DNA of 64,000 nucleotides from Rhizobium sp. 32-5/1. Its GTDB lineage: Bacteria > Pseudomonadota > Alphaproteobacteria > Rhizobiales > Rhizobiaceae. Location: contig NZ_CP120639.1 in assembly GCF_029537235.1 (NCBI RefSeq), forward strand, positions 434,001 through 498,000. Direction: 5' to 3'. Under the pieces are notes generated by a model. It made no database searches and was not told the DNA's origin. It was given only the letters and a program-made list of their open reading frames with translations. Below, piece by piece: positions 1 to 44,789 of the stretch (positions are counted from its first letter, which is position 1; each line of letters starts with the position of its first letter). The position numbers were made by a program, and so were the translations under genes.

Positions 1-105
1 GGTCGTCTCAGCTGGTTCACGGCTGGCGCAGTCGTGCTTGGCATTGGCCTGGTATTTGGAGCACCCGCGATTGTTGACCAGTTGATGTCGACCGTTGGGA
101 ACTGA
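1..105 (+). CDS. virB2: VirB2 major pilin, C-terminal part (cut by window start)
   Basis: The frame is open from the first base and encodes the last 34 residues of a small membrane protein ending in LMSTVGN. It has one hydrophobic helix (AVVLGIGLVFGAPAIV) after a short polar turn, which fits the second membrane segment of VirB2/TrbC T-pilins. The stop lies 3 bases before the virB3 start. Its place just ahead of virB3 and virB4 in a full VirB operon is the main reason for the name. The signal sequence and first helix lie outside the window. Confidence 0.8.
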   Translation, partial: GRLSWFTAGAVVLGIGLVFGAPAIVDQLMSTVGN

Positions 106-108
106 CCG

Positions 109-407
109 ATGGCAGAGTTTGAAGACGACAAGCCGGTCCTCACCCCCTGATCATCGGTTTGACCCGGTCGCCGACGCTTTGGGGCGTCCCGTATATGGCC
201 GTCGTCATCGTCATCGGCCTGACAATCATTGCCTGGCTCGCCACGAACACGGTTTGGGCGCTGCTGACGGCACCTGTCTCGTACGTGATCCTTTTCACAC
301 TATGCACTTGGGACAGCAGGATCCTAGACGTGCTGCAAGTCGCAACACGTCTGACGCCCAAGACCCCGAACAGATCATTCTGGGGTGCCAACTCTTACGG
401 ACCGTGA
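109..407 (+). CDS. virB3: VirB3 inner-membrane T4SS protein, frame-disrupted
   Basis: Starts MAEFEDDKPVLTP and then hits TGA at 148-150. One base added to the C run at 143-147 continues the protein as LIIGLTRSPTLWGVPYMAVV and on to SFWGANSYGP, giving about 99 residues, the usual VirB3 length. The conserved VirB3 start (pattern LTRPxxxxGVP) and two hydrophobic stretches are present. VirB3 works with VirB4 in pilus assembly at the inner membrane. The stop at 405-407 overlaps the possible virB4 GTG start at 404. The missing base is probably a homopolymer sequencing error, because the protein is otherwise intact. Confidence 0.85.
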
Positions 408-412
408 CGATC

Positions 413-2826
413 ATGCTGAAGCTCATTCGAGAAGAACTGGGGTTTGGAAGCAAACTCAACGGCGAAAAGCCAATGGCGAAGCATATCCCCTACCTGAGGC
501 ATGTCGCCGACACGGTCGTCAAGCTGGAGAGTGGCGCATTGCTTTCGATCATTCGCCTCAATGGGCTGTTTTTTCAGACTGAGGATCAGGCCGAACTCAA
601 TATGCGATCCGTTGTGCAAAACACGATGATCAGGGCGCTCGGGTCCAGCCGTTTTTCTCTTTGGTCGACCGTGATCCGGCGTCAGGTCGAGAGCGACCTC
701 GACGGCGATTTCACTGACCCATTCTGTGACCTGCTCAATCGACGCTACATGGCGCAATTGAGCGAAAAGCGCATGTTCACCAACGAACTTTATTTAACCG
801 TCATACGGTCCGGAATGCGCGGTGCTCTGGCAGTCGGGGACAAGACGCGACGTCTTTTCGACAAGGCAGGGTCGCGCGATGCGGCGAACGACCAGCTGCG
901 AGAAGAGGTCAGTGAGCTCGAAGAACTTGTTGGAAACATCTGCAAGGATCTCCAGAAATACGCTGCCCGGCCGCTCAGTATCGTGCATCGCAATGACGAA
1001 CCCTATTCTGAGCCGTGCGAGTTCTTCCAGACGATCCTGAGCTGCGGCATTCCCCGCCGCATGCGCTTGCCCCGGATGAGCATTTCCAACTACGTCGGGA
1101 GCTCGCGCCTGCATTTCTCTCGGCGGACCATGCAGGCGCAGGGACCGGTGAAAGAGGATGATCGTTTCGGGGCGATGCTGTCGATCAAGGAGTACCCTCC
1201 CTTCACCGGCCCCGGCATGCTGGACGGTTTGTTGCAGGTGAATCACGAATTCGTCCTGACCCAGTCCTTCACCATCACCGACAAGCCAATCGCCCAGGAG
1301 CGTATTTCGCGTCTGAAGCGGCAGATTGCGGCCTCAGATGAGGCCGGCAGCGATGTCGAAAACGATATCGACTTTGCACTGAACAGCCTGTTGAACCAGG
1401 AGGCTGTGTTTGGTCTCCACCACATGACCCTGTTGTGCCTGTCGCGCGATCTCGATGGGATCAACAAATCCGTATCCGACCTCGGCGCCTGCCTGACCGA
1501 CATGAATATGAACTGGTTACGGGAGGATCTCAATCTGGAGGCCGGCTTCTGGGCGCAGCTTCCCGGCAACCATAGTTACATCGCCCGGAAGTCCCTGCTT
1601 TCCAGCGCCAATTATGCCGGTCTGTCTTCGATGCATAACTTTGCCAGCGGACAGACGGAAGGCACGCATTGGAATACGCCGATCACCATTCTGGAGACGA
1701 CCAGCCAGACACCCTACTGGTTCAATTTTCACCGTAGGGATATAGGCCATTTCCTGGTGACGGGTCCGACGGGCTCCGGCAAGACCGTCGTCTTGACGTT
1801 TCTGCTGGCGCAGGCATTTCGTGTTCGACCCGCCCCGAAAGCCGTTTTCTTCGACAAGGACCGGGGCGGCGAGATTTTCGTGCGCGCCATGAACGGTGCT
1901 TATGAGGTGCTAACACCTGGCACCTCGTCCGGGTTCAATCCACTACAGCTGGAAAACAATGGCCCCAACCGCGAATTCCTGCTTCGCTTACTCAAGGCCA
2001 TGCTTCATCACGGTGACGGCAACGCCTTCGACCAGGAGGAGGAAGACATTCTCGAAAGGGCGCTGTTGCGGCTGATGCAGGAGCCGGCAGCGCAACGAAA
2101 TCTTGCAAACCTCTCCGGTCTATTGATCGGCCGCGCCCGCGCCGGGTCTAATGACCTGAGCGCTAGGCTGAGACCTTGGATCGACGGCGAGAAAGCTTGG
2201 CTGTTCAACGCCCAGCACGATGTCCTTACCTTCTCCGAGCGACAGGTGTTCGGGTTCGACATGACCAGCATCCTCGACAACGAGGAGCTCAGGACGCCGG
2301 CCCTCATGTATATTTTCCACCGACTGGACGAGCTTCTCGACGGCAGACCGGTGATGATCTTCATGGACGAAGGCTGGCGCCTTTTGCGGGATACGACGTT
2401 CAGCGACTTTATCGTCGACAAGATGAAGACGATCCGCAAGCTGAACGGCATCGTCGGCTTCGGTACCCAGTCGGCAGCTGACATTGCCCGGGCGCCCGCA
2501 TCGCACACGTTGATCGAGCAGTCGTCGACCAATATCCACTTTCCCAATCCGCGTGCGGACGAAGAAAGTTACATCAGGCGCTTCGGCCTGACGGTGAAGG
2601 AGTTCAACTTCATCCGAACGACACCCCGGAAAAGCGGACTTTCCTGATCAAGCACGGCAATGACAGCGTCATTGCAAGGCTTGCTCTCGACGGGATGCCG
2701 GACATGGTGAAGGTCTTGTCCGGCCGCAAGGAAAGTGTCGAGGAATGCGCGCGCCTTAGAGATGCGCTGGGTGATGATCCTCTCGCCTGGCTTCCTCCAT
2801 TCTGCGGATGGGAGGTATGGCCATGA
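413..2826 (+). CDS. virB4: VirB4 T4SS ATPase, frame-disrupted near the C-terminus
   Basis: Large AAA+ ATPase that energises pilus biogenesis and substrate transfer at the inner membrane. Walker A GPTGSGKT lies near residue 450 and Walker B VMIFMDEGW near residue 646. The CagE/TrbE/VirB N-terminal region precedes them. The ATG at 413 starts MLKLIREELGF; a GTG at 404 overlapping the virB3 stop is an alternative. The frame breaks at the C4 run 2624-2627. With one more C it continues as EKRTFLIKHGNDSVIARLAL to a stop at 2824-2826, giving about 804 residues, normal for VirB4. This stop overlaps the next start (ATGA), indicating translational coupling. Confidence 0.93.
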
Positions 2827-3905
2827 AGCGTTTTGCCCTTCCCATGTTGGCTGTCGCGGTGTTCGAGGTTCCGGGTCTTGCCTGGGCCGACGTCCCTGTT
2901 ATCGACGATACAATTCTGCAGGAAGACACCGCGCGCGACGAGACGACGCGCAAAATCGAAACGACCGACATGGACCGTCACACCATCAACACCTCGGTCA
3001 CCTGCTCCATGTACCGGCCATCCCGGCGGAACGATCCGGTTGGTGCGGCGCAGCAGAACTCAGAAATCTCCGGGCTCGTCCGCCGTGTCGCACGAGAAGA
3101 GGGCGTCAACGAAAACGAGTTTCTGGCGTTGGTTTATCAGGAGAGCCGGTTCAACCCTTGCGCCAAATCCGGCATGGGCGCCACCGGCCTGGCGCAATTG
3201 ATGCCTGGGACTGCGACCGAACTCGGTGTGAACGAGAACAATATCGAGGAGAACCTGCGTGGTGGTGCCCGATACTACAAGCGGCAGCTGCGCCGCTATA
3301 GTGGCAACGTGGCCCTAGCCCTTGCCGCCTATAATTCCGGCGCAGGCAACGTCAACAAATATGGCGGGATTCCTCCCTTCAAGGAAACACAGGGATACGT
3401 GCGCGGCATCACGCAGGACTGGCTTCCGGCCTTCGGCGGATCCGACAAATCGGGCATTCCACTGAATTTTGGTGGTGGCGAGACCGCTTATACCGGCATG
3501 CGAAACTCCACGCTCAACGCCATGGGCACCACCACAGCCACCGGCGAAAGCCTCTCGAACGTGGGGAGCTGGTACCAGCAGCTGGCGGGCCTCCAGACCG
3601 GAACCATTCAAGATAGCTGGGACCACAATTCCACGGTGCGTAACGCCAACCTGGAAATGATGAACAACGCCCTCAAGCTCTCAACCGCCATGGCCGACCT
3701 CATCAACGCGCGAAACGCTGTCACGACGTCAAACCTGTCGAGCTCCTCGCAATCGGCATCAAACGACAAGGACGAAGACAAGCCCAAGGACACCACTGGT
3801 CTCTGCGATCCAAAACTGAACCTCATCTGGGATCCCGAGCAACGAGTCTGCATCGAAAAACGCGAAGCCGCCTCCAACGTGCGGCTGTTGCTGCAACCAC
3901 AATAG
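2823..3905 (+). CDS. virB1: VirB1-like lytic transglycosylase
   Basis: Periplasmic peptidoglycan-cleaving enzyme that opens the wall for T4SS assembly. It has a signal peptide (MKRFALPMLAVAVF..LAWA) and then a goose-type SLT domain at about residues 75-190: QESRFNP with the catalytic Glu near residue 106, GATGLAQLMPGTA, and AAYNSGAGNV. About 150 extra residues follow, ending in a cysteine pair (CDPKLNL..RVC) and unlike the SLT fold. The start at 2823 is chosen because GGGAGG lies about 8 bases upstream and it overlaps the virB4 stop; in-frame ATGs at 2808 and 2817 are possible. In the Ti virB operon virB1 comes first; here it sits between virB4 and virB5. Confidence 0.88.
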   Translation: MKRFALPMLAVAVFEVPGLAWADVPVIDDTILQEDTARDETTRKIETTDMDRHTINTSVTCSMYRPSRRNDPVGAAQQNSEISGLVRRVAREEGVNENEFLALVYQESRFNPCAKSGMGATGLAQLMPGTATELGVNENNIEENLRGGARYYKRQLRRYSGNVALALAAYNSGAGNVNKYGGIPPFKETQGYVRGITQDWLPAFGGSDKSGIPLNFGGGETAYTGMRNSTLNAMGTTTATGESLSNVGSWYQQLAGLQTGTIQDSWDHNSTVRNANLEMMNNALKLSTAMADLINARNAVTTSNLSSSSQSASNDKDEDKPKDTTGLCDPKLNLIWDPEQRVCIEKREAASNVRLLLQPQ

Positions 3906-3915
3906 GAGCAAAACC

Positions 3916-4617
3916 ATGAAACTATTGAAAGTGACTGCTGCGCTCTCCCTTTTGCCGCTTGGCGTCGCCCATGCCGATGTGCCGGTGATCGACAAGAAAA
4001 ACTACGAGATCGCCAAAGAAACAGCGGCCACGACCACAAAGATCCTCGAGACCAATTCAAACATTTTGAAAACTGTCGAGGACACCCTGAAGGCCGTGAC
4101 CGGTGACAGAGGCAGCACATCTCAACCGCTGCAGAACCTCGCCATCGGCCAGGGTTTCAGTGTTGCTTCGATGCCTTCCCTCGACAGCCTCATCAAGGAC
4201 GGCGTTCCCGACTTCGGCAATGTGAGTGGCGACATTTCCAAAGTAGTGACGACGTTCATCAATGGCCTGCAGTTGGTGAAGTCCCTGTCCGGTGAGGAAA
4301 ACAGCGATTTCTCCGGCGACAAATCCTACGAGCACCTGGTCAACACCGTGTTTGGCGTTTCCGCGCTAATCAACGGATCGCAAAAGGCCACCCAAACGCG
4401 ACGCAGTGCTCTCGAGGCGGCCGGGCAGAAGATCGGCACGGCCGAGGACATCAAGGGATCTATCGACCAGAATACACAGTTGCAGGTCCAATCCGGCCTG
4501 ACCCTCAACGAGATGATTGGCGTCATGAACGGGGCGGTCTCATCCCTTCAGGCGGATAATCAACGGCGCCTGACCGACATCTCCAACACCAAGAAAGCGC
4601 TCGCCTATGGCGATTGA
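3916..4617 (+). CDS. virB5: VirB5 minor pilin / pilus-tip adhesin
   Basis: 233-residue secreted protein with a clear signal peptide cleaved after residue 20 (PLGVAHA). The rest is mostly helical and rich in Thr, Asn, Asp and Leu, as in the TraC/VirB5 family, which forms the pilus tip. It lies 10 bases after the virB1-like gene, and its last bases overlap the next small lipoprotein gene. The mature protein starts ADVPVID, the same heptapeptide that follows the signal peptide of the neighbouring VirB1-like protein. VirB5 proteins are poorly conserved, so position in the operon contributes to the call. Confidence 0.82.
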   Translation: MKLLKVTAALSLLPLGVAHADVPVIDKKNYEIAKETAATTTKILETNSNILKTVEDTLKAVTGDRGSTSQPLQNLAIGQGFSVASMPSLDSLIKDGVPDFGNVSGDISKVVTTFINGLQLVKSLSGEENSDFSGDKSYEHLVNTVFGVSALINGSQKATQTRRSALEAAGQKIGTAEDIKGSIDQNTQLQVQSGLTLNEMIGVMNGAVSSLQADNQRRLTDISNTKKALAYGD

Positions 4618-4819
4618 TCGCACGACCAGCCGTCTGCCCTTTGGTGTCCTGTTTGCAACGGTTCTGCTCACCAGCTGCGGAACCGTCAAGGAAAAGACCG
4701 CCCCATGCAAGCGACCGGCGGAACTGAGGTCCTTTGCAGAAGATCGCCGGCAAGACTGTGGGCCGATGCGCAGCGTGAACGACCCAGCCGCCGCCTTTGC
4801 TGCGATCGGGTTTAGATAG
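4607..4819 (+). CDS. small lipoprotein, VirB7-like or entry-exclusion type
   Basis: 70 residues with a lipoprotein signal (LLTSC, acylated Cys at position 24) and two further cysteines in the mature part (APCKRPAELRS and RQDCGPM). It overlaps the virB5 3' end by 11 bases and precedes virB6. In related T4SS operons this place holds either the VirB7/TrwH core-complex lipoprotein, which pairs with VirB9, or an Eex entry-exclusion lipoprotein. No other VirB7 candidate exists in the operon, which favours VirB7. The short sequence cannot decide between them. Confidence 0.7.
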   Translation: MAIDRTTSRLPFGVLFATVLLTSCGTVKEKTAPCKRPAELRSFAEDRRQDCGPMRSVNDPAAAFAAIGFR

Positions 4820-4826
4820 GGGCGCT

Positions 4827-5852
4827 ATGGAAGATTTTCTGGGCGACCTGCTTCAGCGAATTGAGGATTCGGGAACGACGTTTTCCGAGCAAGCCTACAC
4901 TGTCGTCGGACAGGAGGTCTTGCCCCTCCTACAGCTTATGCTCGTCGCCTATGTGTCCTACTACGGCTTGCAGCTCTTTCTTGGAACAGCGCGTATCGGC
5001 GTTTCGGAGATTGTCGGCCGCATCGTCCGCATGATGATCATTCTCGCACTCGTCAGTTCTTGGGCGAACTTCAACAATCTGCTTTATCAATGGATCAACG
5101 ATACGCCCGAGGATGTTGGACGAGCGATCCTGGCTGCCTCCGGCACGGGCATCACCGAACCCACCAACGGACTTTCACAGATCTGGCGCACAGCCAACCA
5201 GGCGGCGTCCGCATTTGCAGAGCAATCGGGGTATTTCTCGATCCTTCCCAGCATGATCGGCGTGCTGATCATGGTTGGCGCGGGAGTTTTCATCGCCGTC
5301 GCGTTGGCGATCCTGATCCTGGCCAAGGTCATGCTGTGGGTGCTGATCGGAACCGCGCCGATTTTCATCGCCTGCATGCTGTTTGAGAGAACTCGCGGCT
5401 ATGGCGTCGGCTGGTTCAACCAGGTTCTCACCTACGCGCTGATCCCGCTGTTTATCTATGTCGTAGCATCTTTCCTGATCGCCGCGATGAATCCCGAGTT
5501 GGCAAAGATTGATTCCGCCAGCGGTTCCAGAGTCCTCACGCTCGCCGATATTGCCGGCTTCCTGCTCCTCTGCGCCGCCGGTGCCTTCGTCATGCTTTAC
5601 GTGCAGTCGATTGGCCAGGGCATCGCCGGCGGTGTTTCATCTGGCGTTGGATCATTCGGGATCGGAATGGCCAAGAGGTTCGGCATCACCGCTCCGTGGG
5701 CAACCGCTCGCGGAGCAGGTGCGGTTGGTCGCTCGGCGTACCGCGGCGGTCGAGCCCTTCGCGCGCGGTACAAATCCGGTGGTGACGATGACAGTTCCGG
5801 TACCAAGACCGCCATGCAGACGAAGATCACGCAAAACAGTAGGCCGGCATAA
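4827..5852 (+). CDS. virB6: VirB6 polytopic channel protein
   Basis: 341-residue TrbL/VirB6-family inner-membrane protein of the T4SS channel. At least five hydrophobic segments are visible, for example LPLLQLMLVAYVSYYGLQLF, MIGVLIMVGAGVFIAVALAI, VMLWVLIGTAPIFIACMLF and FLLLCAAGAFVMLYV. The tail is basic and glycine-rich. The ATG at 4827 has AGGGG upstream at 4818-4822; upstream in-frame codons run into the lipoprotein gene and are rejected. Confidence 0.9.
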   Translation: MEDFLGDLLQRIEDSGTTFSEQAYTVVGQEVLPLLQLMLVAYVSYYGLQLFLGTARIGVSEIVGRIVRMMIILALVSSWANFNNLLYQWINDTPEDVGRAILAASGTGITEPTNGLSQIWRTANQAASAFAEQSGYFSILPSMIGVLIMVGAGVFIAVALAILILAKVMLWVLIGTAPIFIACMLFERTRGYGVGWFNQVLTYALIPLFIYVVASFLIAAMNPELAKIDSASGSRVLTLADIAGFLLLCAAGAFVMLYVQSIGQGIAGGVSSGVGSFGIGMAKRFGITAPWATARGAGAVGRSAYRGGRALRARYKSGGDDDSSGTKTAMQTKITQNSRPA

Positions 5853-5886
5853 GCTGGTGCCACAAATTCAAAGGGCATGACGGGCT

Positions 5887-6579
5887 ATGGCAGAGACAAT
5901 TGATGAACGCCTACGAACCTATTACCAGAGCGGCGACATCTGGGAACAGGAAGTCGTCAAGAAGGCCAAACGATCACAAGCGCTCGCATGGTTTGTCACC
6001 ACAATCTTCGGTGCGATCACGCTCGTAAGCCTTGCGACGCTCGCCATGCTCGTGCCTTTGAAGAGTTTCGAACCTTATATTGTCGAGGTTGACAAGAACA
6101 CTGGCTATGTTGAGGTCAAGACCGGGCTTACCAGGCCGACCAACCTGACTGAGCAGCAGGCCATCACCCAGGCCAATATCGTTCGCTACATCCGGTCGCG
6201 AGAAGGTTACGACCCCTTTGCGATCGAGCAGAATTTCGCCATTGCGGCCCTTCTGTCAACGGGCAACGCGGCCCGCCAGCTGCAGGACCTTTACAGTGCC
6301 GCCAATCAACAAAACCCGGCAAGAGTCTACGGGCGCAACAAGCGCATAACGACGGAAATCGCTTCGGTCACCTTTCCCAATACGAGCACAAGTATCGTTC
6401 GATTCACCACTGTCGAGCAATCTGAAACGGAATCCATCCCACGTCACTGGATCGCCGTCGTCCGCTATCGCTATACCGACACTCCGGCAACCAACGAATG
6501 GCGTTTTGAGAATCCACTTGGCTTCCAGGTCTACGACTATCGCCGCGATCAGGAGACTGTGACCGAGGGCCGCCCCTGA
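5887..6579 (+). CDS. virB8: VirB8 inner-membrane scaffold protein
   Basis: 230 residues with a short cytoplasmic N-terminus, one membrane helix at about residues 31-58, and a periplasmic NTF2-like domain as in VirB8. Conserved-looking stretches include SFEPYIVEVDKNTG, YIRSREGYD and the NPLGFQVYDYR end (family NPxGFxVxxYR). VirB8 nucleates assembly and contacts VirB9 and VirB10. The stop overlaps the virB9 ATG by one base. Confidence 0.94.
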   Translation: MAETIDERLRTYYQSGDIWEQEVVKKAKRSQALAWFVTTIFGAITLVSLATLAMLVPLKSFEPYIVEVDKNTGYVEVKTGLTRPTNLTEQQAITQANIVRYIRSREGYDPFAIEQNFAIAALLSTGNAARQLQDLYSAANQQNPARVYGRNKRITTEIASVTFPNTSTSIVRFTTVEQSETESIPRHWIAVVRYRYTDTPATNEWRFENPLGFQVYDYRRDQETVTEGRP

Positions 6580-7391
6580 TGATTGTTCGCATTGTGCTCG
6601 CTGCCGCCCTGATAGCAATCAGATCTTTGGGAACTGCTTCTGCTGCGCAGACGCCAGCCTCGGGCCGGCTTGATCCAAGGGTCACCAGTGTCGTCTATCA
6701 GCCGAACAACGTTGTGCGCGTTTTCGCGACCTATGGCATCTCGACGATGATCACTTTCGACGAGGACGAAAAGTTCGAGACTGTCGCCCTCGGCGATACC
6801 GAAAGCTGGGATGTCGTACCGACCGACAGGGGCAACATCCTGTTCGTTAAACCGAAAGCCAAGAACGTCACCACCAATATGAATGTCGTCACGACAAAGC
6901 GGACCTATTATCTCGAACTCAACGACTATGCGCCTGAGGACGGCAGACAAGTCTTCGGTATCCGTTTCGTATATCCTGAGAAGAATCTCAACGCCTCGCT
7001 CCGTAAAGAGGCTGAGGCGCGCGCCGCCAATCCAAACATGGCTGGCATCGACAAGGCTAACGTCAACATTGACTATTCATTTTCCGGCGGCGGGAAGTTG
7101 AAGCCTGCGATGGTTTTCGACGACGGCAAGAAGACATTTTTCAAGTTCGGCGCGACCGTGCCGGCAGTCTTTGCAGTCAATGCTGATTTCTCTGAGACGC
7201 TGCGGAACTTCCGACGTGAGGGTGAATACATCGTCGTTGACGGCACCGCGACCCAATACACGTTGCGGGACGGCAACCAATGGACTTGCATCTTCAATTT
7301 GAAGAAGCCGGACTTCGGGGCACCTGACCCAGACATCATGGCACCGAGCTTTGAAGAGAAGGCTAAAACACGACGAAGGAGCGGAAACTGA
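6579..7391 (+). CDS. virB9: VirB9 outer-membrane core complex protein
   Basis: 270 residues with a signal peptide ending near ASA (about residue 22), then the VirB9/CagX/TrbG beta-rich domains. Recognisable elements are LDPRVTSVVYQPNNV near the mature N-terminus, the middle FGIRFVYPE, and the C-terminal domain beginning DYSFSGGGKLKPAMVFDDG with FKFG after it. Together with VirB7 and VirB10 it forms the outer-membrane ring. It overlaps virB8 and virB10 by single bases, so these genes are one translationally coupled unit. Confidence 0.94.
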   Translation: MIVRIVLAAALIAIRSLGTASAAQTPASGRLDPRVTSVVYQPNNVVRVFATYGISTMITFDEDEKFETVALGDTESWDVVPTDRGNILFVKPKAKNVTTNMNVVTTKRTYYLELNDYAPEDGRQVFGIRFVYPEKNLNASLRKEAEARAANPNMAGIDKANVNIDYSFSGGGKLKPAMVFDDGKKTFFKFGATVPAVFAVNADFSETLRNFRREGEYIVVDGTATQYTLRDGNQWTCIFNLKKPDFGAPDPDIMAPSFEEKAKTRRRSGN

Positions 7392-8643
7392 TGCAGCGCT
7401 CTCCAGAGCTCGAAGCAATGTTGGCGGGTGACGAGGTCGACGTCAGAGACAAGCGCATACGACGCAAGCAGTTGCTTGGGGGCGGCGCCCTGCTGTTCGG
7501 CGGAGCAGCGCTGGCCTATGTCGTGGTGTTTGCGCCCGAACAGCGCAGGCCGGAGAGCGTCAGAGGCGACGAAGAGTTCACTACAACCACGTTCCGTCCG
7601 CCATCGTTTCTGCGCGAAGGTGAGAAGCAGCCGGAAAAGGATCCTGAGCCAATCATCAAGCTGCCTGATCCCCCAGTCGAGGACAAAGAGGAGGAGCCCT
7701 CGGAGACGACGAAGTTCGATGTCCCTCCTCCGCCAGGCATCGTCGAAACCATTGATGAACCAGTCGTTCAGCCTGAAAAGGTGGAGGAGTTTCCGAAACG
7801 TTTCCTGTCAAAGCAGATGGTAGTTGACTCGACCAAGGCCGACGGGCGCGACACTTTAAATGCTGGTAGCACCGAGAGCGGATTAACGGTTGCGGGGGAA
7901 GATCGCAATAGCAAGTTTCTGGCGTCCGCCACTGCGATCGGCGACCGGTCTGCCAAGGCCCGTCAGATCGAACGCATCGATGCGATGATCCCCGAGGGAA
8001 CCTTGATCTCCGGCATTCTGGAGACAGCGATCAACAGCGACTTGCCCGGCCAGATCCGCGCGATCACTTCACAGGATGTTTACTCATTTGACGGCCGCCG
8101 CATCCTGATCCCGACCGGAACAAGGCTCATCGGAGAATATCAGTCAGAGGTCACGCGGGGGCAGAAGCGCATTTTTGTCATCTGGACGCGCTTGCTGCGA
8201 GACGACGGCGTGACGGTTCGGCTCAACAGCATCGGCGCCGACAGCCTGGGACGATCCGGCCTGACAGGACTTATCGACAACAAATGGCGGGAGCGTTTCG
8301 GATCGGCAATCCTGCTTTCGATTGTCGGTGCAGGCTCCTCTTACCTGACAGGCTATAGCCGCAACCAATATGGTTCCGGCAGCAGCAACGATGGATCTTC
8401 GGATTCTGACCGCGCTGCAGAACTCGCCCGCGAGACAATTGCACAGACCTTCTCCGACATGGCCAACCAGGCACTGGCGGAGAACCTGAAAATTCCCCGA
8501 CGATCAGCGTTCATCAGGGCGAGCGCATCTTCGTCTATGTCCGCCAGGACCTCGATTTCTCCGCCATGTATCCGGACCCGGTCGACGAAGCGCTGAAGGA
8601 AATCAAGCATGAGCGAGGCATTCGCCAAAATCAAAGCCGCTGA
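7391..8643 (+). CDS. virB10: VirB10 envelope-spanning core protein, frame-disrupted at the C-terminus
   Basis: TrbI/VirB10 protein with a short cytoplasmic part, one membrane helix (GGALLFGGAALAYVVVF, about residues 31-47), a Pro/Glu-rich periplasmic linker, and the C-terminal beta-barrel domain (IPEGTLISGILETAINSDLP, RILIPTGTRLIGEYQS). It senses ATP use by VirB11/VirD4 and gates the outer-membrane pore. The frame breaks at the C4 run 8495-8498. With one more C the natural end reads TISVHQGERIFVYVRQDLDF and stops at 8641-8643, overlapping virB11. As written, the frame ends at 8596 with an unrelated tail. Confidence 0.92.
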
Positions 8644-9634
8644 TCATAGTCCTTACTATTTCCTGCGGCGATCACTCGACCCCGTTTCCAACTTTCTGTC
8701 CGATCCGACAGTGGTGGAAATCTCGGTCAATCGGCCAGGGCAGGTCTATATTGAACGGCTCGGCGCCGATGTGATGGAGCATCATGAAATTCCGTCGCTG
8801 ACGGCGGCGGAGATCGAAAACATTGGTGAACGGGTCGCTGGCGCCACACATCAATTCATCAGCCGGGCAAACCCTATTCTATCAGCAGCCTTGCCGACGG
8901 GGAGCGAATCCAGATCGTCCTGCCGCCGGCGGCTGCCGACGGTGGCGCCATCTCGATCCGCAAGCAGGTGACGAGTGACTTCACCCTCGAAGAATACCGG
9001 GACAATGGCTCGCTGGAAAAAGTGTCGGTTGCCGTTGGTGGTCTTACCGATGTCGAACAGGCTCTGATCGAACATCTGAGAGCGGAGCGCATCTACGAAT
9101 TCATCAGGTCTGCCATTCGAAATCGGATCTCGATCCTGATCAGCGGCGGGACGTCGACGGGGAAAACGACCTTTCTCAATGCCTGTCTCCGGTCGATCGA
9201 CCCGTTCGAGCGCATTCTTACCCTGGAGGATACACGCGAACTGTTTCCGCCACAAAAGAACGCCGTCCATCTCCTGGCCTCGCGGGGAGATCAGGGCACG
9301 GCGCGGGTTACCATCCAGTCGCTGCTCGAGGCGTCGCTGCGGATGCGTCCAGATCGCTTGTTCGTCGGTGAAATAAGGGGTTCGAGGCTTTTGCCTTTTT
9401 GCGCGCCATCAATACCGGTCACCCAGGCAGCATGTCGACCGTTCATGCGGACACGCCCCTCGGAGCCTACGAACAGCTTGCGATGATGGTACAGCAAGGC
9501 GGAATGTCGGCAGGCTACTCCAAGCAGGATCTTATGTCCTACATCCAGATGGTCATCCCCATTGTCATCCAGTTGCGCCGCGAGGAGGCCGCAGGGGCGT
9601 CTCCGAGATCTACTACGCAAGGCACACGGCATGA
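8609..9634 (+). CDS. virB11: VirB11 hexameric ATPase, three frame breaks
   Basis: Secretion-type traffic ATPase that switches the machine between pilus assembly and DNA transfer. The corrected protein is about 342 residues. The N-terminal domain begins MSEAFAKIK; Walker A is SGGTSTGKTTF, followed by the Asp box LTLEDTREL, and His-box/Walker B elements RMRPDRLFVGEIRG and NTGHPGSMSTVHAD. The frame is lost at three sites, each needing one G: near 8899-8902, 9383 and 9584-9587. The restored end GRRGVSEIYYARHTA stops at 9632-9634, overlapping the virD4 ATG. No motif is missing, so the gene may well be intact in the organism. Confidence 0.88.
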
Positions 9635-11723
9635 GCAGGACATACCTTGCCGCATATCTGTTGTTATGCAGTCTCATCGCTGTTGCGGTCTGGATCATCG
9701 GCTATTCTTTGATCCTGCAGCTCGTCTACAAGGATAGTCGTATCCTTCAACTGACAGTCGCAGCCAACCCGTTTGCGCCGCTGCAGCAATTCTGGCTCTA
9801 TTCAGGAAATCGTGCGCTCCAGATCGCCGCTGTAGGGGCGCTCCTTCCTGCACTTGTGGTGGCCACGGCAGCCGGAATGTTCGGCTTGCGCCGCCCATCC
9901 AACCCACTGGGAGACGCAGCGTTTCAGAATATTGCCGCAATCCGGAGCGGAAGGTGGTTTCGCAAGGACGGACACGTCTTCGGCAAAATGGGTCGAAATG
10001 TCCTCAGGCGGCTCGATGATCGGCATCATCTCGTCATTGGCCCGACCCGATCAGGAAAAGGGGTGGGATACGTCATCCCGAACACTTTGATGTTTCCGGG
10101 GTCGATGATCGTTACCGATCTGAAAGGTGAGATTTTCCAGCGAACCGCAGGCTACCGAAAGGCAAACGGACACCAAGTCTTCCTGTTTTCGCCGGGTGCC
10201 TCAAAGACCCATCGGTGGAATCCGATGGATTTCGTTCGGCAGGATCGCGGCAGCCGTACGATCGACATCCAGAACATGGCGAGCATTCTCATTCCTGAAA
10301 CGCTCGGCTCCGACAATGCTATCTGGCAGGGAACTGCTCAGCAGGTCATTGCCGGGGTCATCAGTTATGTCCTGGAAAGCACCTACTACCGGAACCGTCG
10401 TAACCTTGGTGAGGTCAACAGCATCTTTAACTCAGGCGTTGACCTCCAGGTTCTGATGAAACTAATCAAGGAGAAGGAGCAGGATCTTTCAAGGTTCACG
10501 ACCGACAGCTTCAACGCGTACATTTCCCTCAATGAACGGGCGGCCCGCTCTGCGCTGCTCGATATTCAGAAGGCGATGCAGCCGTTTCGCAATGAACGCG
10601 TGATTGCGGCCACCAATGTGACCGACATCGACCTTGCTTCGATGCGCCGGCGGCCAGTATCGATCTACCTGGCGCCAAATATCAGCGATGTGACCATTCT
10701 ACGCCCCTCCTTACCTTGTTCGTGCAGCAAAGCATGGATCTCCTGACCCGCGATTTCGATCCAGGCGCCCTGCCTGCTTATTTTCTGCTGGATGAGTTTC
10801 GGCAGCTAAAGAGGATGGATGAGATCATGAACAAGCTCCCGTATGTAGCTGGTTATAATATCAAGATGGCCTTCATCATTCACGACCTCAAAAGCCTGGA
10901 TGAAATCTATGGCGAGACGTCTCGCCATTCCCTTCTCGGCAACTGCGGTCTGCAACTCATTCTCGGTGCCAATGACCAGGCCACGGCCGAGTATGCCTCT
11001 CGCGCGCTTGGCAAGAAGACCATCCGCTATCAGTCGGAGTCTCGAACTTTGGAATTGATGGGGCTGCCCCGGCGGACGAAAGTTGAACAGATTCGCGAAC
11101 GCGACCTGATGATGCCACAGGAGGTTCGTCAGATGCCGGAGGACCGAATGCTCCTGCTCGTGGAAGGGCAGAGGGCTATATTTGGACAAAAGCTCCGATT
11201 TCATGAAGAAGCTGGGTTCAGGACCGCAGCACAATACGCGGCTGAAAACCAGCCTACCGTCCCCGACGCGGAACTTGTTTCCCTGTTGCAGGTTCCGGCA
11301 GTTGCTGAGACCTATGGGGGTGTTTCGCCGCCATCAGACGGAGATCACGCGCAAGCTCCCGGCGAGGCGGCTGTTACCGAAATCCCAGTTGTCGTCGCCA
11401 AGGCATTGCAGTTGGCGCCGGACAGGAAGGGTCGAAACAATCCGGATTCAGGCTTCACTCAAGGACCTGCGGCCAGCCAGAATGACGAAGCCGCCGAAAA
11501 GATTGAGGCACGGCTAAAGCCTACTGCTGCACAGCTGCGCGCGACGATCGATGCAAAGCTAACGCAGGCAAATGGCGCCTCGGCGAGAAGCAGACAAAGC
11601 ATCGTGGAGATCTTAAAGCAGACAGTTCCTGATCCAGCAGAAGCTTCCGCTGTCTCCTCCAGCAGATTGGATCGGAACAGCGCGATCATTTCCGGCGTAC
11701 CGTCGACACCGGTAACGGCGTGA
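9631..11723 (+). CDS. virD4: VirD4-type coupling protein, frame-disrupted
   Basis: T4SS coupling protein that brings the relaxase-DNA complex to the channel. It has N-terminal membrane helices, Walker A GPTRSGKGVG near residue 137, and Walker B YFLLDEFRQL near residue 385. The corrected length is about 697 residues. The last ~150 residues are a polar, Ala/Pro-rich tail of low complexity. The frame breaks in the C4 run 10704-10707; one more C joins the two halves (ILRPLLTLFVQQSMDLL). Starting at 9631 overlaps the virB11 end. Being last in the virB operon is typical of many conjugative VirB systems, unlike the Ti plasmid where virD4 is separate. Confidence 0.9.
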
Positions 11724-35011: not shown

Positions 35012-35293
35012 TCAGCCTGCGTCTCTCGGATCTTCTTGAATTCGGGCATCGCGATCGTCGGGCCGGGCCTGCGTTAGCTCTCCATGCGGTGTGCCGCGAT
35101 TTGCATCGGCGGCATCATGGGACTGGGTTTGTGAGGTGGACTTTTCATTCTCACGCTTTTGACGATCGGGCTCGAGAGATTGCAGTGCAGCTTTCAGTTC
35201 GTCATCAATTTCCGAAACCTCGCGAATGATGCCGTTGCCGGTCGCGCCTATTTCCGCCGCTTTGGTGATGTGTGCGGCCAGCTCTTTCTTCAA
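35012..35293 (-). CDS. relaxase C-terminal extension or separate small helical protein
   Basis: A 93-codon frame (LKKELAAHITKAAEIGATGN...) in the same frame as the relaxase and separated from it by one TAA at 35339-35341. The bridging codons also read as protein (AIERTAAGRHDDLPN). It is helical and charged, with a Gln/Ser-rich end. Either the relaxase normally continues into it and a nonsense change has split it, or it is an independent gene with a TTG start. The end is close to the IS66 remnant and may be truncated. Confidence 0.5.
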   Translation of the reverse strand: MKKELAAHITKAAEIGATGNGIIREVSEIDDELKAALQSLEPDRQKRENEKSTSQTQSHDAADANRGTPHGELTQARPDDRDARIQEDPRDAG

Positions 35294-35338
35294 GTTCGGT
35301 AGGTCGTCATGCCTTCCAGCTGCAGTTCGCTCGATCGC

Positions 35339-37257
35339 TTATCGTGTTCTCTCGATATCGACAAGCACCTTATTCGCTGCATCGGCCGCGGCAAATCCAT
35401 GTCTCTCGACCGCGTCGCTCCACCGTCGTTTGTCATCCTGTCGGCCATCGGCCCCTCGTTCTTGAGACGATTGATCGGAAATTCTGGACGGGCCACGGCC
35501 CTCAAGAAGTTCAACGATCTCACGGCGAACATTGACATGTTCGCGCGCCGCCTGCGCAATCTCCTCGAAATCCTTGCGCTCCTCAAGCGCCATGGCTTTC
35601 TCTGCCTGGAAGAGCGCGGTCTCGACCCGCTTTTCATATGCTTCGAACTCCGGTCGCGTCACGTGGCGCATATCGTCACCTTCAGAAACAAGCTCTGCCA
35701 ACTTTACCAAATGTGTTCGAAACTGCGAGCCAGAATTTCCACTTTCTTGATGAACAGTCTTGCTGGTTCCTGCCGTGGTTCTGACTTCCTCCAGCCGAAC
35801 GATCTGCGAGCGAACGAAGTTCTGTTGCGCGCCAAGCTCCCGAGACTGCAGGATTTCCCGCCACTCTCCCTGTGCCTTCTGCATATAGGCCTGGCTGCGG
35901 GCCGTTCCCGACCGGTCGGATCTATCGTCTCGTTTGGCATGGTAACGCCGCGCAGCCGCAGCACTGGTCCCCTCATGCTCAGTACATCCAATTGTGTTCA
36001 TTGGACGCACCTGGTTCTTCGAATAGGCAGGCGCACTTGCCCGATCTCGCCGATCGGTCATCTCCATGTTGATGCCATGGGAGCGCGCCTTCTTGGCCAT
36101 CGCTAGTCGCCACTGCCGAAAAGCGGCAATGGTTGTTTCGACCCGCTCGCCGGCATCCGATCGCATCGCGACGATGGCGTGGACATGAACGTGGGGACGC
36201 TTGCCCCCGTCCGCCTCCGCCTTCGGATCGCTGCCTGCATCGTGCAGTGAGAAGACGTAGCGATGGCCTGCGAACTGCTGGCCTAGAAAATCGCGCGCGG
36301 CACTTTGAAACGCTTCCGTGTCCGTACCGGCGCGGGCCGAGAGGATCAGGTGCATGACATCACGGGGTTTTCGACTGTAGAGTTGGTCCCGCCATTCGAG
36401 CTGAACGAGATCGCCAGCTTGCTTCGCATCGGCGATCACGCGTCCCCGTTCGTCCTGCACCTCGCCCTTGTGTGATGCCACCAGCGAGCGCACCTGGCTC
36501 GTGCCATAGTCAGTGCCGTTGCCGTAGCCAGTAAACCGAAAGGTCGCGTCCGCCCCGGCTCCCTCCAGACGCGTCTGCACGATCGCCGCGGCCTTGTCGT
36601 CCGCCGTCAGTCGCTCACCGCCGGTACTCCTAAGCACCGTCACGCCGTCAACGTCAAACCCGCTTCCATCCGCGCGTGCTGTGACCGCAAACGCGAAGGC
36701 GCGGTCCCCCAAGCCGTGTTTCACAATCTCACGAGCTCGGTCAAAGAGGTAATCGTCAGCGCGGCCGTCATCGGCGACCGAGATGTTGAAGGAGCCAATA
36801 TCCCGGCTCTCGGACCGGTTCTTCATCAGGTGATTCCATTCATCAGCGACGGCGGAGAGCTGGTCACGGCCACGAAGCCGATCGCCACGTTCGTTCTCGA
36901 CGGCAACGACGCCATTACGGGAGACATAATTGATCATCGCACCCAGTCTCGACCCGCCGCCAAACGATGCCATTTTGACAACGGCCGGCTGACTGCCAGA
37001 GGCAAGGCCGGCAAAGCGTGCCCGCATGGGCCGATCGGCGCGCCGCTTCACGCTGTCCGCACGCCCGTCCCCTCCGCTGCGAAATCGAAAGCCAAATGCC
37101 TTTGACGTTCCGGTTGACCCCGCCGGCGCGACACCCCTCCCCGGCGGCGGCGCTCTTCCTCCTCAAGCAAACTGCGGCGCCCGAGTGTCAGGTCGTGGAG
37201 AAAGGCCGCCTTGCGTTGCTCCCATTCAGCCGTGAATGCACCGAGGAAAATCTCCAT
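35339..37257 (-). CDS. conjugative relaxase (VirD2/MOBP-like), frame-disrupted near the N-terminus
   Basis: About 640 residues. It nicks oriT and pilots the strand through the T4SS. Motif I lies around MINYVSRNG (candidate catalytic Tyr), and motif III is KRPHVHVHAIVAM (HxHxH metal triad). An accessory N-terminus (MEIFLGAFTAEWEQRKAAFL..GRRSLLEEEERRRR) joins the main frame through one missing T at 37090-37092 (FDFRSGGDG). A 31-codon frame (VIEDVQRAVAIVLFELQAFA) at 37257-37352 links it to mobC and may belong to it by another slip. Such relaxases occur on rhizobial plasmids that pair them with a VirB/VirD4 system. The order relaxase-mobC-oriT is seen here. Confidence 0.87.
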
Positions 37258-37348
37258 CACACGCTGCCGACGCGTCTACGAGCGCCCCGCGCGGCAAAAG
37301 CCTGCAGTTCAAACAGCACGATCGCGACGGCGCGTTGAACATCTTCGA

Positions 37349-37653
37349 TCACCTTTTTTCCTCCTGCGACCGACCCGTTTCACCCCTGTTGCGTGCTCGC
37401 GCCAGTTGGTTGAGATTGACGCCGACGGCTTTGACGTCGGCCAGAAGCAGGGAAAGGACTGCCCTGTCCGCGTCAGTGAAGAAGGGATGAAGCCCTGCAC
37501 CCTCCAGGGTGAGAGAGCGCAAAAACCCGAGACCGTCATCCCGGCAGCGTCAGCAGCCTGCTCGATCCGCTCGATTTCGGTCGCGCTGAAACGCGCATGG
37601 ACAACCTTGTTTCTGCGCTCCTGCCTAATATCATCGCTCGCAAACGAACCCAT
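37349..37653 (-). CDS. mobC: MobC-like relaxosome accessory protein, frame-disrupted
   Basis: About 101 residues: MGSFASDDIRQERRNKVVHA, RFSATEIERIEQAADAAGMT form a ribbon-helix-helix-type DNA-binding start. In the second frame the tail reads FLRSLTLEGAGLHPFFTDAD, then AVGVNLNQLARARNRGETG, the typical MobC C-terminus (NLNQLAR). One T is missing in the run near 37525-37529. ATG 37653 has AAGGAAGG upstream. MobC binds oriT and helps the relaxase melt the nick region. The oriT lies about 60 bases upstream of this gene. Confidence 0.82.
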
Positions 37654-37710
37654 CAGACCTTCCTTGAAGCCAGCCGCAGGCCTCATCGACGGCCCGTCCG
37701 TCGATCGTTA

Positions 37711-37743
37711 GCAAATTTGTATCACAAATTTGCGTATCCTGCC
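37711..37743. other. origin of transfer (oriT) with T-DNA border-like nick site
   Basis: A perfect 9-base inverted repeat GCAAATTTG/CAAATTTGC (37711-37719 and 37725-37733, 5-base loop) is followed at once by G and TATCCTGCC (37735-37743). This matches the nick consensus of MOBP relaxases and VirD2 (TATCCTG, cut, C), and the Ti-plasmid border core read on its complementary strand. It lies in the mobC-parA intergenic space. The nick would fall between 37741 and 37742. Confidence 0.8.
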
Positions 37744-37987
37744 AAAACTAAGATTACCTCATCGGTAACATATTTTCAAGCATCCGACCACGACAAAACG
37801 CGGCGCCTCGACCCGAAGCGCTTCCCCTTCTGTCGCGGATCGACGACGGCGAACCTCGCGGTGCCAATGACTGCGACAACGACCTGCACCACAAATGTAT
37901 GATTTAATCGCGTTGTATCAATGCGTTGTGTGACTATACATCCGCTCGCTACATTGCAGCAATTCAAGCCTACGACAGATGTATGGA

Positions 37988-38007
37988 GTGTGGAATATAT
38001 TCCACAC
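37988..38007. promoter_or_regulatory. 20-bp perfect palindrome upstream of the ParA-like gene
   Basis: GTGTGGAATATATTCCACAC is a perfect 20-base palindrome, 131 bases before the ParA-like start. A second, weaker inverted repeat (AATGAA...TTCATT) lies at about 38051-38071. Likely operators for autoregulation by the RHH protein, or a partition-type site (inference). Confidence 0.6.
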
Positions 38008-38137
38008 TGTAGCATGCGGATGTTGCGCCGAGGTGTATATCAGTTTTGGAATGAACATATTGTATTCATTTTTGCTTGCGCCCAAGCGCGTCTTCGAAGC
38101 ACAATACCCATTCAGAAGATTGGATACGGGACGACAG

Positions 38138-38848
38138 ATGACGCGAACCTATGCGGCAGTGAGCAATAAAGGCGGGGCCGGGAAGACGACGCTGGTGACG
38201 TTGGTCGGAGGGGAATACGCGTTGCGCGGCGAGCGCGTTCTGCTGATCGATGCCGACAACAGGCAGAACCTGTCCGGCTGGTGGCGACTTTGTGCCGAGA
38301 AGAACAACGTACCTGACAATCTCGAAGTGACCGTTGCATCAACGCAGCGATCGATCGAACAGGCCATCAACAATCTGGGGCGGGCGTTCGATCTCGTTAT
38401 CATCGACGCTCCAGGCGTCGACAGCACCTTGCAGACCACTATCATCCGCTCGGCCGAACTGGTGATATCGCCGATTCAGCCGGCGATAAAGGAACTTGAA
38501 GCAGCCGGACAGGCGGTCGCCACGGTGAACGAGATCAACGACCGCTTCGGCCTGTCTATCGACCATATCAACGTGCGCACCCGCATCTCCGTTCCGGGTC
38601 GGAACATGGAGGCGTATCGCTATATCCGGCCCTTCGTCGCCGGCCTTATCGCTGGCGACTATCGAACGCGATTGCTCGATACAGAGCTGTTCGAGCGCAA
38701 TATTTACCGTGAGATCCAAAACGGACTTGGGACATTGCAGATGCAGGAGCTGACCGATCCGGTGCGAAAAGCGAGACTTGAGGTTCAGGCACTCGTCGAC
38801 GAGATCGAGCAACACAGAATGTCGGAAGGCATTGAGGGCGCAGCATGA
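38138..38848 (+). CDS. ParA/MinD-family ATPase, VirC1-like
   Basis: 236 residues. The deviant Walker A is SNKGGAGKTTLVTLVG near residue 9, followed by VLLIDADNRQNLSGW and LVIIDAPGVDST. Length and position fit VirC1 of the Ti plasmid, which binds near the T-DNA border and helps assemble relaxosomes at the pole. A partition ParA is the alternative, but no ParB follows. The ATG at 38138 begins exactly at the conserved strand (MTRTYAAVSNKGG). The stop overlaps the next gene by 4 bases. Confidence 0.85.
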   Translation: MTRTYAAVSNKGGAGKTTLVTLVGGEYALRGERVLLIDADNRQNLSGWWRLCAEKNNVPDNLEVTVASTQRSIEQAINNLGRAFDLVIIDAPGVDSTLQTTIIRSAELVISPIQPAIKELEAAGQAVATVNEINDRFGLSIDHINVRTRISVPGRNMEAYRYIRPFVAGLIAGDYRTRLLDTELFERNIYREIQNGLGTLQMQELTDPVRKARLEVQALVDEIEQHRMSEGIEGAA

Positions 38849-39222
38849 GCAAGGGTGGACTTGGATTGTCGGATCTATCGATTGCGCCCCGTAAATCGGA
38901 ACGTCCTTCGGGACCGGTCGCCAGCGTCACCACGCTCGTGCCGGCACCCAACGAGACGGTCGCACCTTCAATATTGCCAAAGCCGAGTGAGAAGCAACGC
39001 CGCGAAACGGCGGAGACGCGGGCCATAGTGCAGGAGGATGCGCGCTATAGCCTCAAAAACTTGAAACGGTCCAAACAGCGCAATGTCAAATTCTTCGTCA
39101 ATATTGCTCTCGACTACGAGCTGAAGGCGCGGCTTCAGCGGGCAGCCACAGAGAACGATCTCAAAATGACTGCGGTGGTCAAGGCGGCACTCGATTATTA
39201 TCTGAAGGAGAATGACTATTGA
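38845..39222 (+). CDS. ribbon-helix-helix protein, VirC2-like partner of the ParA ATPase
   Basis: 125 residues with a disordered, Pro/Ser-rich N-terminal half and a C-terminal RHH-type segment (RNVKFFVNIALDYELKARLQ..AATENDLKMTAVVKAALDYY). VirC2 of Agrobacterium has an RHH fold and works with VirC1 at overdrive. Here the pair directly follows an oriT with a border-like nick, so a relaxosome role is proposed. A plasmid-partition adaptor is the alternative. It overlaps the upstream gene (ATGA). Confidence 0.78.
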   Translation: MSKGGLGLSDLSIAPRKSERPSGPVASVTTLVPAPNETVAPSILPKPSEKQRRETAETRAIVQEDARYSLKNLKRSKQRNVKFFVNIALDYELKARLQRAATENDLKMTAVVKAALDYYLKENDY

Positions 39223-39705: not shown

Positions 39706-40906
39706 GTGAGCAGACGCTACCGAATAGGCCAGACCATTGTGGCAGAGGACGATCCGGCCTTCGGCCCGATCCTTGCGCAAGCCTATCAGACGAGGCAAAG
39801 ACCCATCTGCCTTTGCTGCGACCGGGGGCGGCGATGTATATCGCCCGCATTGGTGAGCAGTTTTGCGCCAAGCGCATGCCACTATCGGGTTCCGACCACG
39901 ACCCACAATGCCAGTCCTATGAACCGCCCTATGAGCTCTCGGGGCTTGGGTCATTGATCGGCGGGGCGATCCAGCTCGATCCAGCCAAGGGATTGGCCGC
40001 GCTCAAACTGGATTTTCTCTCTCCAAGCGCGGCGCGCGGATGATGGCGGGAGGACCGACGCTGAGCGAAGGACCGGTCAAGAATGAGGTCAAGAAACTCT
40101 CGCTGCGTGCGCTGCTGCATTATCTCTGGCACCAGGGTGGCTTGACCGAGTGGACGGCGCACTGGGCTGGCAAGCGTCATTGGTTTCAGGTCCGCAGCCA
40201 TCTGATGGAAGCCGCAGCGACGATGACGGTCAAAGGTGCGCCGCTTTGCGAGCGCATGCTCATCCCGGAAAACTTCCGACTGGAAGACAAGGCGGCCATC
40301 GAACAGAGGCGGGCCGTTGCGCTTGCAGATATTCGGGCGCCTGCGTCTGGACCGAGAAAACTAATCTTGCTTGTTGGCGAGGTGAAGGAGTTTGCGCCGG
40401 CGCGCAGCGGCCAGAAGATCGTTATCAAGCATATGCCAGGGTTCCCGCTGGTGGTTGAGGACTGCACCTGGCGCCGGCTGCAGTCGCGCTATGCCGCAGA
40501 GCTTGAACTCTGGCAAGCGAATAACGGGTTTCATCTTGTTGTGATCGCAACGTTCGGCATGATGCCGTCTGGACTTGCCAGTATCGATGAGATCGCCCTG
40601 ATGTCGGCAACTGAGCAATGGTTGCCGATCGAGAATGCCTACGAGCAACGACTTGTCGACGCTTTGTCACGGCTCAGTCTGAAAAGCGTAAAGGGCCTGC
40701 GGTTCAACCTGTCATCGACGCAGCCGATTGCGGCGGCCACTCTTCCCCATCGCCGGCCCTCGCCCGCAGCGCTCTATATCGTGCCGCCGGACGCCGACGA
40801 TGAATTCGAGATGGCGCTTTCGGAGATGATCGCGGCGCGGCCCGATGTCGATCCGTGGATCTGGCGTGTGGCTGAAGGTGAGATGCCGTCCTTTCCAATC
40901 CGGTAA
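39706..40906 (+). CDS. DUF1173 family plasmid protein, two frame breaks
   Basis: About 400 residues after correction. Family landmarks are RYRIGQTIVAEDDPAFGPIL, QRPICLCC, MYIARIGEQFCAKRMPLSGS, CQSYEPPYELSGLG, VKKLSLRALLHYLWHQGGLT, PRKLILLVGEVKEFAPARSG and ALYIVPPDADDEFE. Breaks: near 39823-39827 (one G short) and near 40014-40018 (one T short in TTTT). DUF1173 proteins occur on conjugative plasmids and integrated elements of alphaproteobacteria; no biochemical role is known. GTG 39706 is the start. Confidence 0.87.
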
Positions 40907-43856: not shown

Positions 43857-44789
43857 CTAGGCTGCATGGCGTTGTGACTCTGACTTCAGATCGTGAAGAA
43901 AAGCGACGGATCGCTGCGCTTGGGCCGCGGCCTGGACGATGAAGCGCCTGTCATTCTTCAACACCGAGAGCCACGACGCGAGATAGCTGGCGTGGTCGGG
44001 GCGGGGTTCCATTTCCGGTACGATGCCGAGATCGGCGGCGAGAAAGACGGCGCCGAGTTCGGCGATCAGTTCTTCGCGCGCTCGCTCGGTGCGGTCTTTC
44101 GCGTATCGCGACAGATCACGATTGAGCCGCTGAGTGGCACCGGCCCAATGCACGCTTTCATGCGCGAGCGTTGCATAGTAACTCTCAATGTCGCGGAACG
44201 TCTCGATCGGCGGCATCTGGATGATATCCGACCCCGGCGCGTAAAAGGCCTTGTCGCCGCCGTGACGTATGACGGCACCTGTGGCCGCGAAGAATGCGTC
44301 CGCATGCGCGATCCTGTCGATCGGTCGAGCGGTTCCACCATCGGGCGCATCCGCGTATCGGTCCCCGAGACCGTCGATCTGTTCGACGTTGAAAACCGTG
44401 TAACCTTTCAGGAAGGGGATATCGCGCTCGATCTCGTTTCCCGCGCCGTCGGTCTCGGTCTTGCTGATCCGGTTGGCATAAACCACCATCGACCCGGTCT
44501 CACCCTTTCTGACACATGCGCCAATCTCCTGCGCCTGCCGAAACGTCATCCAGGTCGACGAGACGTAGCCGCGAACCATAGCTTCAGCCCAGAGAAGCAA
44601 CACATTGATGCCCGAATAGGGTTCGCCGTTGTGGCGTAATGGCCGGGACACGCCACAAACAGGGTGTTTGCTGTTCCAGGGCTGGACCCACGGCCGCACG
44701 CCCTCGTCCAACGCCGCAATCATCCTGTCGGTGATGCGCGTATAGACATCCACCCGCTGCTCGCCCGTCCTCTTATCGTTTTTCATCAT
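43857..44789 (-). CDS. ardC: ArdC-type antirestriction protein
   Basis: 310 residues. The N-terminal ssDNA-binding domain (VDVYTRITDRMIAALDEGVR..PWVQPWNSK, PYSGINVLLLW) is followed by a zincin metalloprotease domain with HESVHWAG (HExxH) near residue 223 and a downstream Glu in REELIAELGAVFLAADLGI. This is the full ArdC architecture. It shields incoming single-stranded plasmid DNA from restriction, which fits its place in the block next to oriT. The promoter should lie in 44790-44950. Confidence 0.93.
   Translation of the reverse strand: MMKNDKRTGEQRVDVYTRITDRMIAALDEGVRPWVQPWNSKHPVCGVSRPLRHNGEPYSGINVLLLWAEAMVRGYVSSTWMTFRQAQEIGACVRKGETGSMVVYANRISKTETDGAGNEIERDIPFLKGYTVFNVEQIDGLGDRYADAPDGGTARPIDRIAHADAFFAATGAVIRHGGDKAFYAPGSDIIQMPPIETFRDIESYYATLAHESVHWAGATQRLNRDLSRYAKDRTERAREELIAELGAVFLAADLGIVPEMEPRPDHASYLASWLSVLKNDRRFIVQAAAQAQRSVAFLHDLKSESQRHAA

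Follow-up and report, generated by a model that had tools for sequence, protein, structure and literature searches.

A ParF/ParG-like gene pair beside the conserved oriT of a rhizobial type IV (probable MOBP0) transfer region

The locus described here is the DNA transfer (Dtr) region of a conjugation system of the rhizobial type IV, probably MOBP0, whose layout has already been published, and the ParF/ParG-type gene pair that it carries beside oriT appears on balance to serve transfer, in the manner of R388 StbB or VirC1. It was analysed within a window of 64,000 nucleotides, meaning the whole stretch of DNA under study, from Rhizobium sp. 32-5/1. The genome is assembled in three contigs, and the replicon concerned is contig C2 (1,086,621 bases, about 1.09 Mb), which also encodes a repABC-type RepA split in two frames. 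A minus-strand mobC-relaxase unit and a plus-strand parA-RHH unit diverge around an oriT motif, the arrangement that characterizes rhizobial type IV Dtr regions, and the coordinates are collected in Table 1.

Table 1. Features of the Dtr region and of the associated transfer apparatus (window coordinates)
Feature	Position	Strand	Remarks
VirB4, VirB6, VirB8, VirB9, VirB10, short VirB11 match, VirD4 in two pieces	95..11723	+	VirB/D4-type transfer apparatus, same replicon as oriT
traA/mobZ MOBP relaxase	35045..37257	-	two frames with in-frame TAA
Relaxase HxHxH motif PHVHVHA	36176..36196	-
mobC, NikA/MobC RHH accessory protein	37263..37620	-	NikA/MobC match; spread over three frames in this assembly
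Conserved oriT core	37671..37743	+	GCCGCAGGC...GTCCGTCGATCGT block, inverted repeat and nick motif
Inverted repeat	37711..37733		perfect, 10 bp; GCAAATTTGT (37711-37720), loop ATC, ACAAATTTGC (37724-37733)
Nick motif TATCCTGCC	37735..37743	+	one G (37734) between repeat and motif
Palindrome AGTGTGGAATATATTCCACACT	37987..38008		perfect, 22 bp; about 150 bp upstream of parA; candidate RHH operator or centromere
parA	38138..38848	+	236-aa Walker ATPase, ParF-like predicted fold
RHH protein gene	38845..39222	+	ParG-type, 125 aa; start overlaps parA stop
DUF1173 gene	39738..40906	+	two frames here; directly after the RHH gene in pAtAB2-73c

The region shares with other rhizobial type IV Dtr regions the parA gene divergent from mobC-relaxase with oriT between them, the MOBP relaxase and the VirB/D4-type apparatus. 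PMC10410297 assigns traA, mobC and parA of the 'tumorigenes' Ti plasmids, together with avhD4/avhB, to type IV, MOBP0, citing Giusti 2012; PMC10194956 and PMC13274422 give the Dtr region of pSmeLPU88b as a parA-like gene, mobC and mobZ. R. tumorigenes plasmids were among the best DNA matches of the present region, and relatives were found in Rhizobium, Sinorhizobium, Mesorhizobium and Phyllobacterium. Giusti reportedly found in 2012 that the oriT of pSmeLPU88b works in mobilisation and maps to the space between parA and mobC, within a fragment of 278 bp. The relaxase shares about 54% identity with TraA of pAtAB2-73c and 45% with TraA of S. meliloti USDA1021, and weakly matches NCBIfam MobP1 (39.4 bits, cut-off 200). 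The minus-strand MobC and HxHxH relaxase proposed in the first-pass annotation were both recovered, through the NikA/MobC match and the histidine motif, but the open reading frame at 37309-37686 is MobC in part only.

The inverted repeat is perfect, as had been claimed, but it is 10 bp long instead of nine, and the motif TATCCTGCC, which was said to follow it directly, starts one base further on. By analogy with RP4 TraI and VirD2, we take the expected cut to fall between 37741 (G) and 37742 (C), so that the nick position would be TATCCTG/CC. The GCCGCAGGC...GTCCGTCGATCGT block upstream of the repeat is kept in the seven closest loci aligned, and a related form is present in nine loci with a short mobC-parA gap. 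Taken alone, the motif carries little weight: the window holds two copies of TATCCTGYC versus 0.44 expected, and at least two copies appeared in 6 of 100 shuffles. It is accepted as real because it is conserved across loci. A search with the RHH protein in 394 genomes of the family gave 61 places in 50 genomes, the window counted. The 60 other places, four plasmid loci, 24 loci found through ParA and the window itself make up a set of 89, in which eight of the ParA-found loci are probable duplicates, as their contigs equal those of other loci in length. In 83 of the 89 loci (75 of 81 when apparent duplicates are left aside) the exact motif precedes parA by at most 1 kb, while it turns up in only 0.5% of base-shuffled upstream stretches. 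The proposed oriT with a VirD2/MOBP-type nick signal is thereby supported. A second TATCCTGCC is present in the window at 46739-46747.

Sixty-six distinct 50-mer cores were obtained from these loci. The CG preceding the motif and the GT...ACA of the repeat are invariant in them, while the nine motif bases are invariant by construction, since the search was for the exact motif; a looser pattern found the same sites. The repeat keeps pairing as its letters vary. Across 35 distinct repeats, 81% of the cells are Watson-Crick pairs, a share that none of 1000 shuffles reached (69% in shuffles). Pair types are in excess as well, at eight versus 4.4 (0 of 1000). Pairs altered on both sides number four versus 3.6 in shuffles (651 of 1000), which is no excess. 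The exact motif is absent in six of the 89 loci. In L197 it differs by one base, L065 represents one half of a split locus, and L078 and L086 are contig ends. L194 is damaged: as judged by eye, the mobC start runs straight into the sequence that follows the motif, and there is further damage in its relaxase, parA and rhh genes. The sixth is L036, on the Aminobacter plasmid pANY103c, in which about 36 bp are cleanly missing (near position 5400) where its relatives carry repeat and motif. Just these two elements are gone from pANY103c; parA, rhh, mobC and traA are still present. Between oriT and parA, about 200 bases are near-identical in the Mesorhizobium/Aminobacter loci L192, L036, L194 and L202.

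The parA-RHH pair is tightly linked to this relaxase. At the 60 RHH places besides the window, mobC adjoins in 57, and mobC together with a relaxase match is found in 55, including L055, whose relaxase match covers 20 residues only, at a contig end. Of the five incomplete places, four are contig ends and the fifth is L065. In genome G349, L065 and L271 are apparently one locus, its parA split over two contigs as if by an insertion. The orientation is also constant, with mobC on the strand opposite parA in all 81 loci having both, ParA-based loci counted. The ParA-based scan, restricted to the best 80 of at least 423 candidates, comprised 24 close and 56 more distant ParAs. All 24 close ParAs in this best 80 are accompanied by mobC and a relaxase match, and 23 of them by the RHH gene; the relaxase match spans at least 546 residues in 22 (19 residues in L193 and 379 in L194). 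Beside the 56 more distant ParAs of the same 80, no relaxase and no RHH protein were found, and a weak MobC match once. When the search was based on the relaxase, the pair was present in 56 of 59 places: 55 on contigs of RHH places, the window included, and one in G073. The remaining places are G349, with its split parA, and two distant relaxases, G047 and G140, beside which no pair was found.

Despite this linkage, a strict need for the pair is not supported. Four plasmid loci (L269, L270, L275 and L276) were selected for having no ParA listed; each retains the oriT motif and mobC, while its parA is reduced or was not found. The relaxase is unbroken in L269 and L270, where parA matches cover 33 and 149 residues; it is broken in L275, which has parA in short pieces, and in L276, which gave no parA match. 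The RHH gene was looked for in all four and not found. As oriT motif and mobC persist without a full parA, the pair would be dispensable for persistence of the relaxase, unless it is supplied in trans. A fifth plasmid locus (L277), selected because ParA was listed there without mobC, is a remnant in which the parA match covers residues 12-227 and the relaxase gene is kept in its 3' part; mobC, the oriT motif and an RHH match were all not found.

The plus-strand genes were correctly recognized as encoding a ParA and an RHH protein. The Walker motif KGGAGKTT of the ParA is present in 21 of 22 aligned ParAs, L038 having S for A, and K11, G12, G13, G15, K16, T17 and T18 of Walker A are invariant in the 22. 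The best Pfam match is VirC1 (60 bits, cut-off 24). The protein scores below the cut-offs of both the NCBIfam VirC1 equivalog NF010423 (61.9 bits, cut-off 313) and the NCBIfam ParA_partition family NF041546 (97.8 bits, cut-off 180). Like type Ib partition ATPases, it is small, without an N-terminal HTH, and has an RHH partner. In a tree of 77 rows, the Dtr ParAs form one clade (99/95) and VirC1 a separate one (100/100). A third, L002-like group is united with these two at 94/90, and the partition ParAs lie elsewhere in the tree. One row, L178, repeats L068 under a different label, and for this reason the Dtr group as printed requires two changes. Forcing Dtr ParAs and VirC1 into one clade was not rejected (p=0.62). 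A clade of Dtr ParAs with NF041546-type partition ParAs was rejected (AU p=0.014), with long branches present in the tree and with groups that were named after it was seen. The sequence comparisons thus support a ParA that is related to VirC1 but makes up a separate clade, distinct from the main group of partition ParAs. The predicted structure (pLDDT 88.8) has TP228 ParF as its top PDB fold match (E 3.2e-13), and no VirC1 structure was among the 50 fold matches listed.

The RHH partner was compared at the levels of profile, family and fold. Its profile matched the RHH partners of NF041546-type (type Ib) ParAs with a probability of 81% (E 1.2e-5), and 11 proteins following VirC1-type ParAs with a probability of 3% (pairwise E 0.015 over 18 columns). 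The 28 members searched matched 23 Pfam families (E up to 1), of which ParG was the commonest (11), followed by 56B_RHH (9) and RHH_1 (8); VirC2 was absent from the 23. The protein of the window scored 17.3 bits against Pfam ParG, below the cut-off of 21.4. Its structural model is modest (pLDDT 72.5, pTM 0.36), with about 90 for the last 35 residues. ParG (1p94) heads its 37 fold matches at E 0.28 and probability 0.87, none reaching E 0.001, and no VirC2 was found among the 37. Homology of the RHH protein to VirC2 was rejected on these three grounds. The suggestion that the pair are counterparts of VirC1 and VirC2 therefore holds for the kinship of the ParA and fails for its partner. The comparison by structure and phylogeny that the first-pass annotation called for is likewise divided: the ParA groups with VirC1, but the folds best match ParF and, weakly, ParG.

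An N-terminal motif, (F/L)-x-x-A-x-R, is conserved in the RHH proteins, with A14 and R16 invariant in 21 sequences. The N-terminal tail of ParG stimulates the ATPase of its partner, and by analogy this motif may stimulate the ATPase of the ParA. In ParF/ParG-type partition the RHH protein is itself the ParB. For this reason the refuting observation named in the first-pass annotation, a parB partner tied to this ParA, is a flawed test. The palindrome upstream of parA recurs in three of the six closest loci (L035, L066 and, as 16 bp of it, L064) and not in the other three. As a family-wide operator it was rejected, being present in only four of 22 scanned loci, the window counted. One palindrome at most lies upstream of parA, with no repeated centromere-like array. 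In the loci with a short mobC-parA gap (L040, L041, L044, L049, L053, L092, L096, L098 and L100), a conserved stretch with TGTG/CACA words stands just before parA and is a possible RHH site.

In the explanation that we favour, the inverted repeat and TATCCTG/CC would be the site of action of MobC and the relaxase. Once nicked, the plus strand would enter the recipient with parA, rhh and DUF1173 first, a polarity taken from RP4 and VirD2. An RHH dimer would bind DNA near oriT and parA, its N-terminal motif would stimulate the ATPase, and ParA would bring the molecule that carries oriT into position at the transfer channel, a role also proposed for StbB of R388 and for VirC1. This role in transfer is favoured on the linkage to mobC and the relaxase, the invariant Walker A residues, the separate repABC-type RepA of the replicon and two precedents. 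In R388, transfer in the presence of StbA depends on StbB, which is also required for polar location (PMC3098194), and partition proteins of NAH7 also enhance transfer (PMC12421886). The main rival is that the pair forms a second, ordinary ParF/ParG-type partition module, which accompanies the mob genes and keeps the plasmid stable. The top fold matches of the two proteins are a true partition pair, the profile and Pfam results for the RHH protein point the same way, the two genes overlap, and the nearest other ParA group, the L002-like one, includes L151, a ParA-RHH pair behind a plasmid replication gene (judged by eye), which also speaks against a transfer role. However, the replicon already has a RepA of repABC type, the pair almost always adjoins mobC, its ParA falls outside the NF041546 partition clade and the upstream DNA lacks a centromere-like array. 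We regard this partition reading as rather unlikely.

Two further explanations are held to be improbable. A true VirC1/VirC2 pair would assemble the relaxosome at the border and recruit VirD4, which would agree with the best Pfam match and the tree position of the ParA, with the MOBP-type nick motif and with the VirB/D4-type apparatus on the same replicon; but the RHH protein is unlike VirC2, VirC1 forms its own clade and the ParA stays under the VirC1 equivalog cut-off. Little probability is also given to a mainly regulatory pair, in which the RHH protein, with ParA as its co-regulator, would act at the palindrome to repress its own operon and the transfer genes. The perfect palindrome and its recurrence in half of the nearest loci would fit such a control, but it is absent from the other loci examined, and an RHH repressor has no need of a conserved ATPase. 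As to the origin of the putative transfer function, a ParF/ParG partition pair may have been captured early in the Rhizobiales by a MOBP oriT and turned into a dedicated transfer motor. On this speculative reading the ParA would share an ancestor with VirC1, and VirC1 may descend from conjugative Dtr ParAs, VirC2 having later replaced the RHH partner.

The known systems each resemble the locus in part. Ti VirC1/VirC2 likewise consists of a ParA-like ATPase followed by a DNA-binding protein, with a MOBP-type nick site and related ParAs, whereas no sequence relation was found between VirC2 and the single-RHH, ParG-like protein. TP228 ParF/ParG agrees in the best fold match of both proteins (weak for ParG), in gene order and in the RHH partner. 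It differs in that the present pair adjoins oriT and a relaxase, and in the placement of the ParA outside the NF041546 partition clade. R388 StbAB also has a ParA-like ATPase and a DNA-binding protein by oriT in the leading region (PMC3098194), but the gene order is reversed and a very long distance (branch 7.9) separates StbB from the rest of the tree. In a search mostly of literature listings, no publication tying the pair to ParF/ParG or VirC1 and no experiment on the parA-RHH pair were found. A vague analogy with VirC is hereby replaced by testable statements: a widespread rhizobial plasmid type has a conserved oriT core and nick motif, a ParF/ParG-like pair is nearly always found by its oriT, and natural plasmids have lost the pair and kept the relaxase. 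The link between plasmid sorting and conjugation becomes directly testable in rhizobia. Six VirC1-like proteins under the VirC1 cut-off (L111-L116), each followed by a protein of 167-202 aa, are possibly VirC pairs outside T-DNA systems.

Compared with intact relatives, this copy has interrupted genes: mobC is spread over three frames, the relaxase and DUF1173 genes over two each, with a TAA in frame in the relaxase, and virD4 is broken into two pieces. These breaks may be pure assembly error or decay. The repA genes of C2 and C3, the two smaller contigs, and hsp90 are split too and completeness is 87%, which speaks for assembly error; rpoB and rpoC are unbroken, which speaks against it. In pAtAB2-73c (L033) a VirD4-type gene lies near traA, whereas virD4 and the relaxase are about 23 kb apart here (window 11.7-35 kb); some genes in this interval resemble cytochrome oxidase subunits, as judged by eye. 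An ArdC anti-restriction gene at 43857-44789 lies on the same side of oriT as parA; should the nick fall at the expected place, this side would be the leading one.
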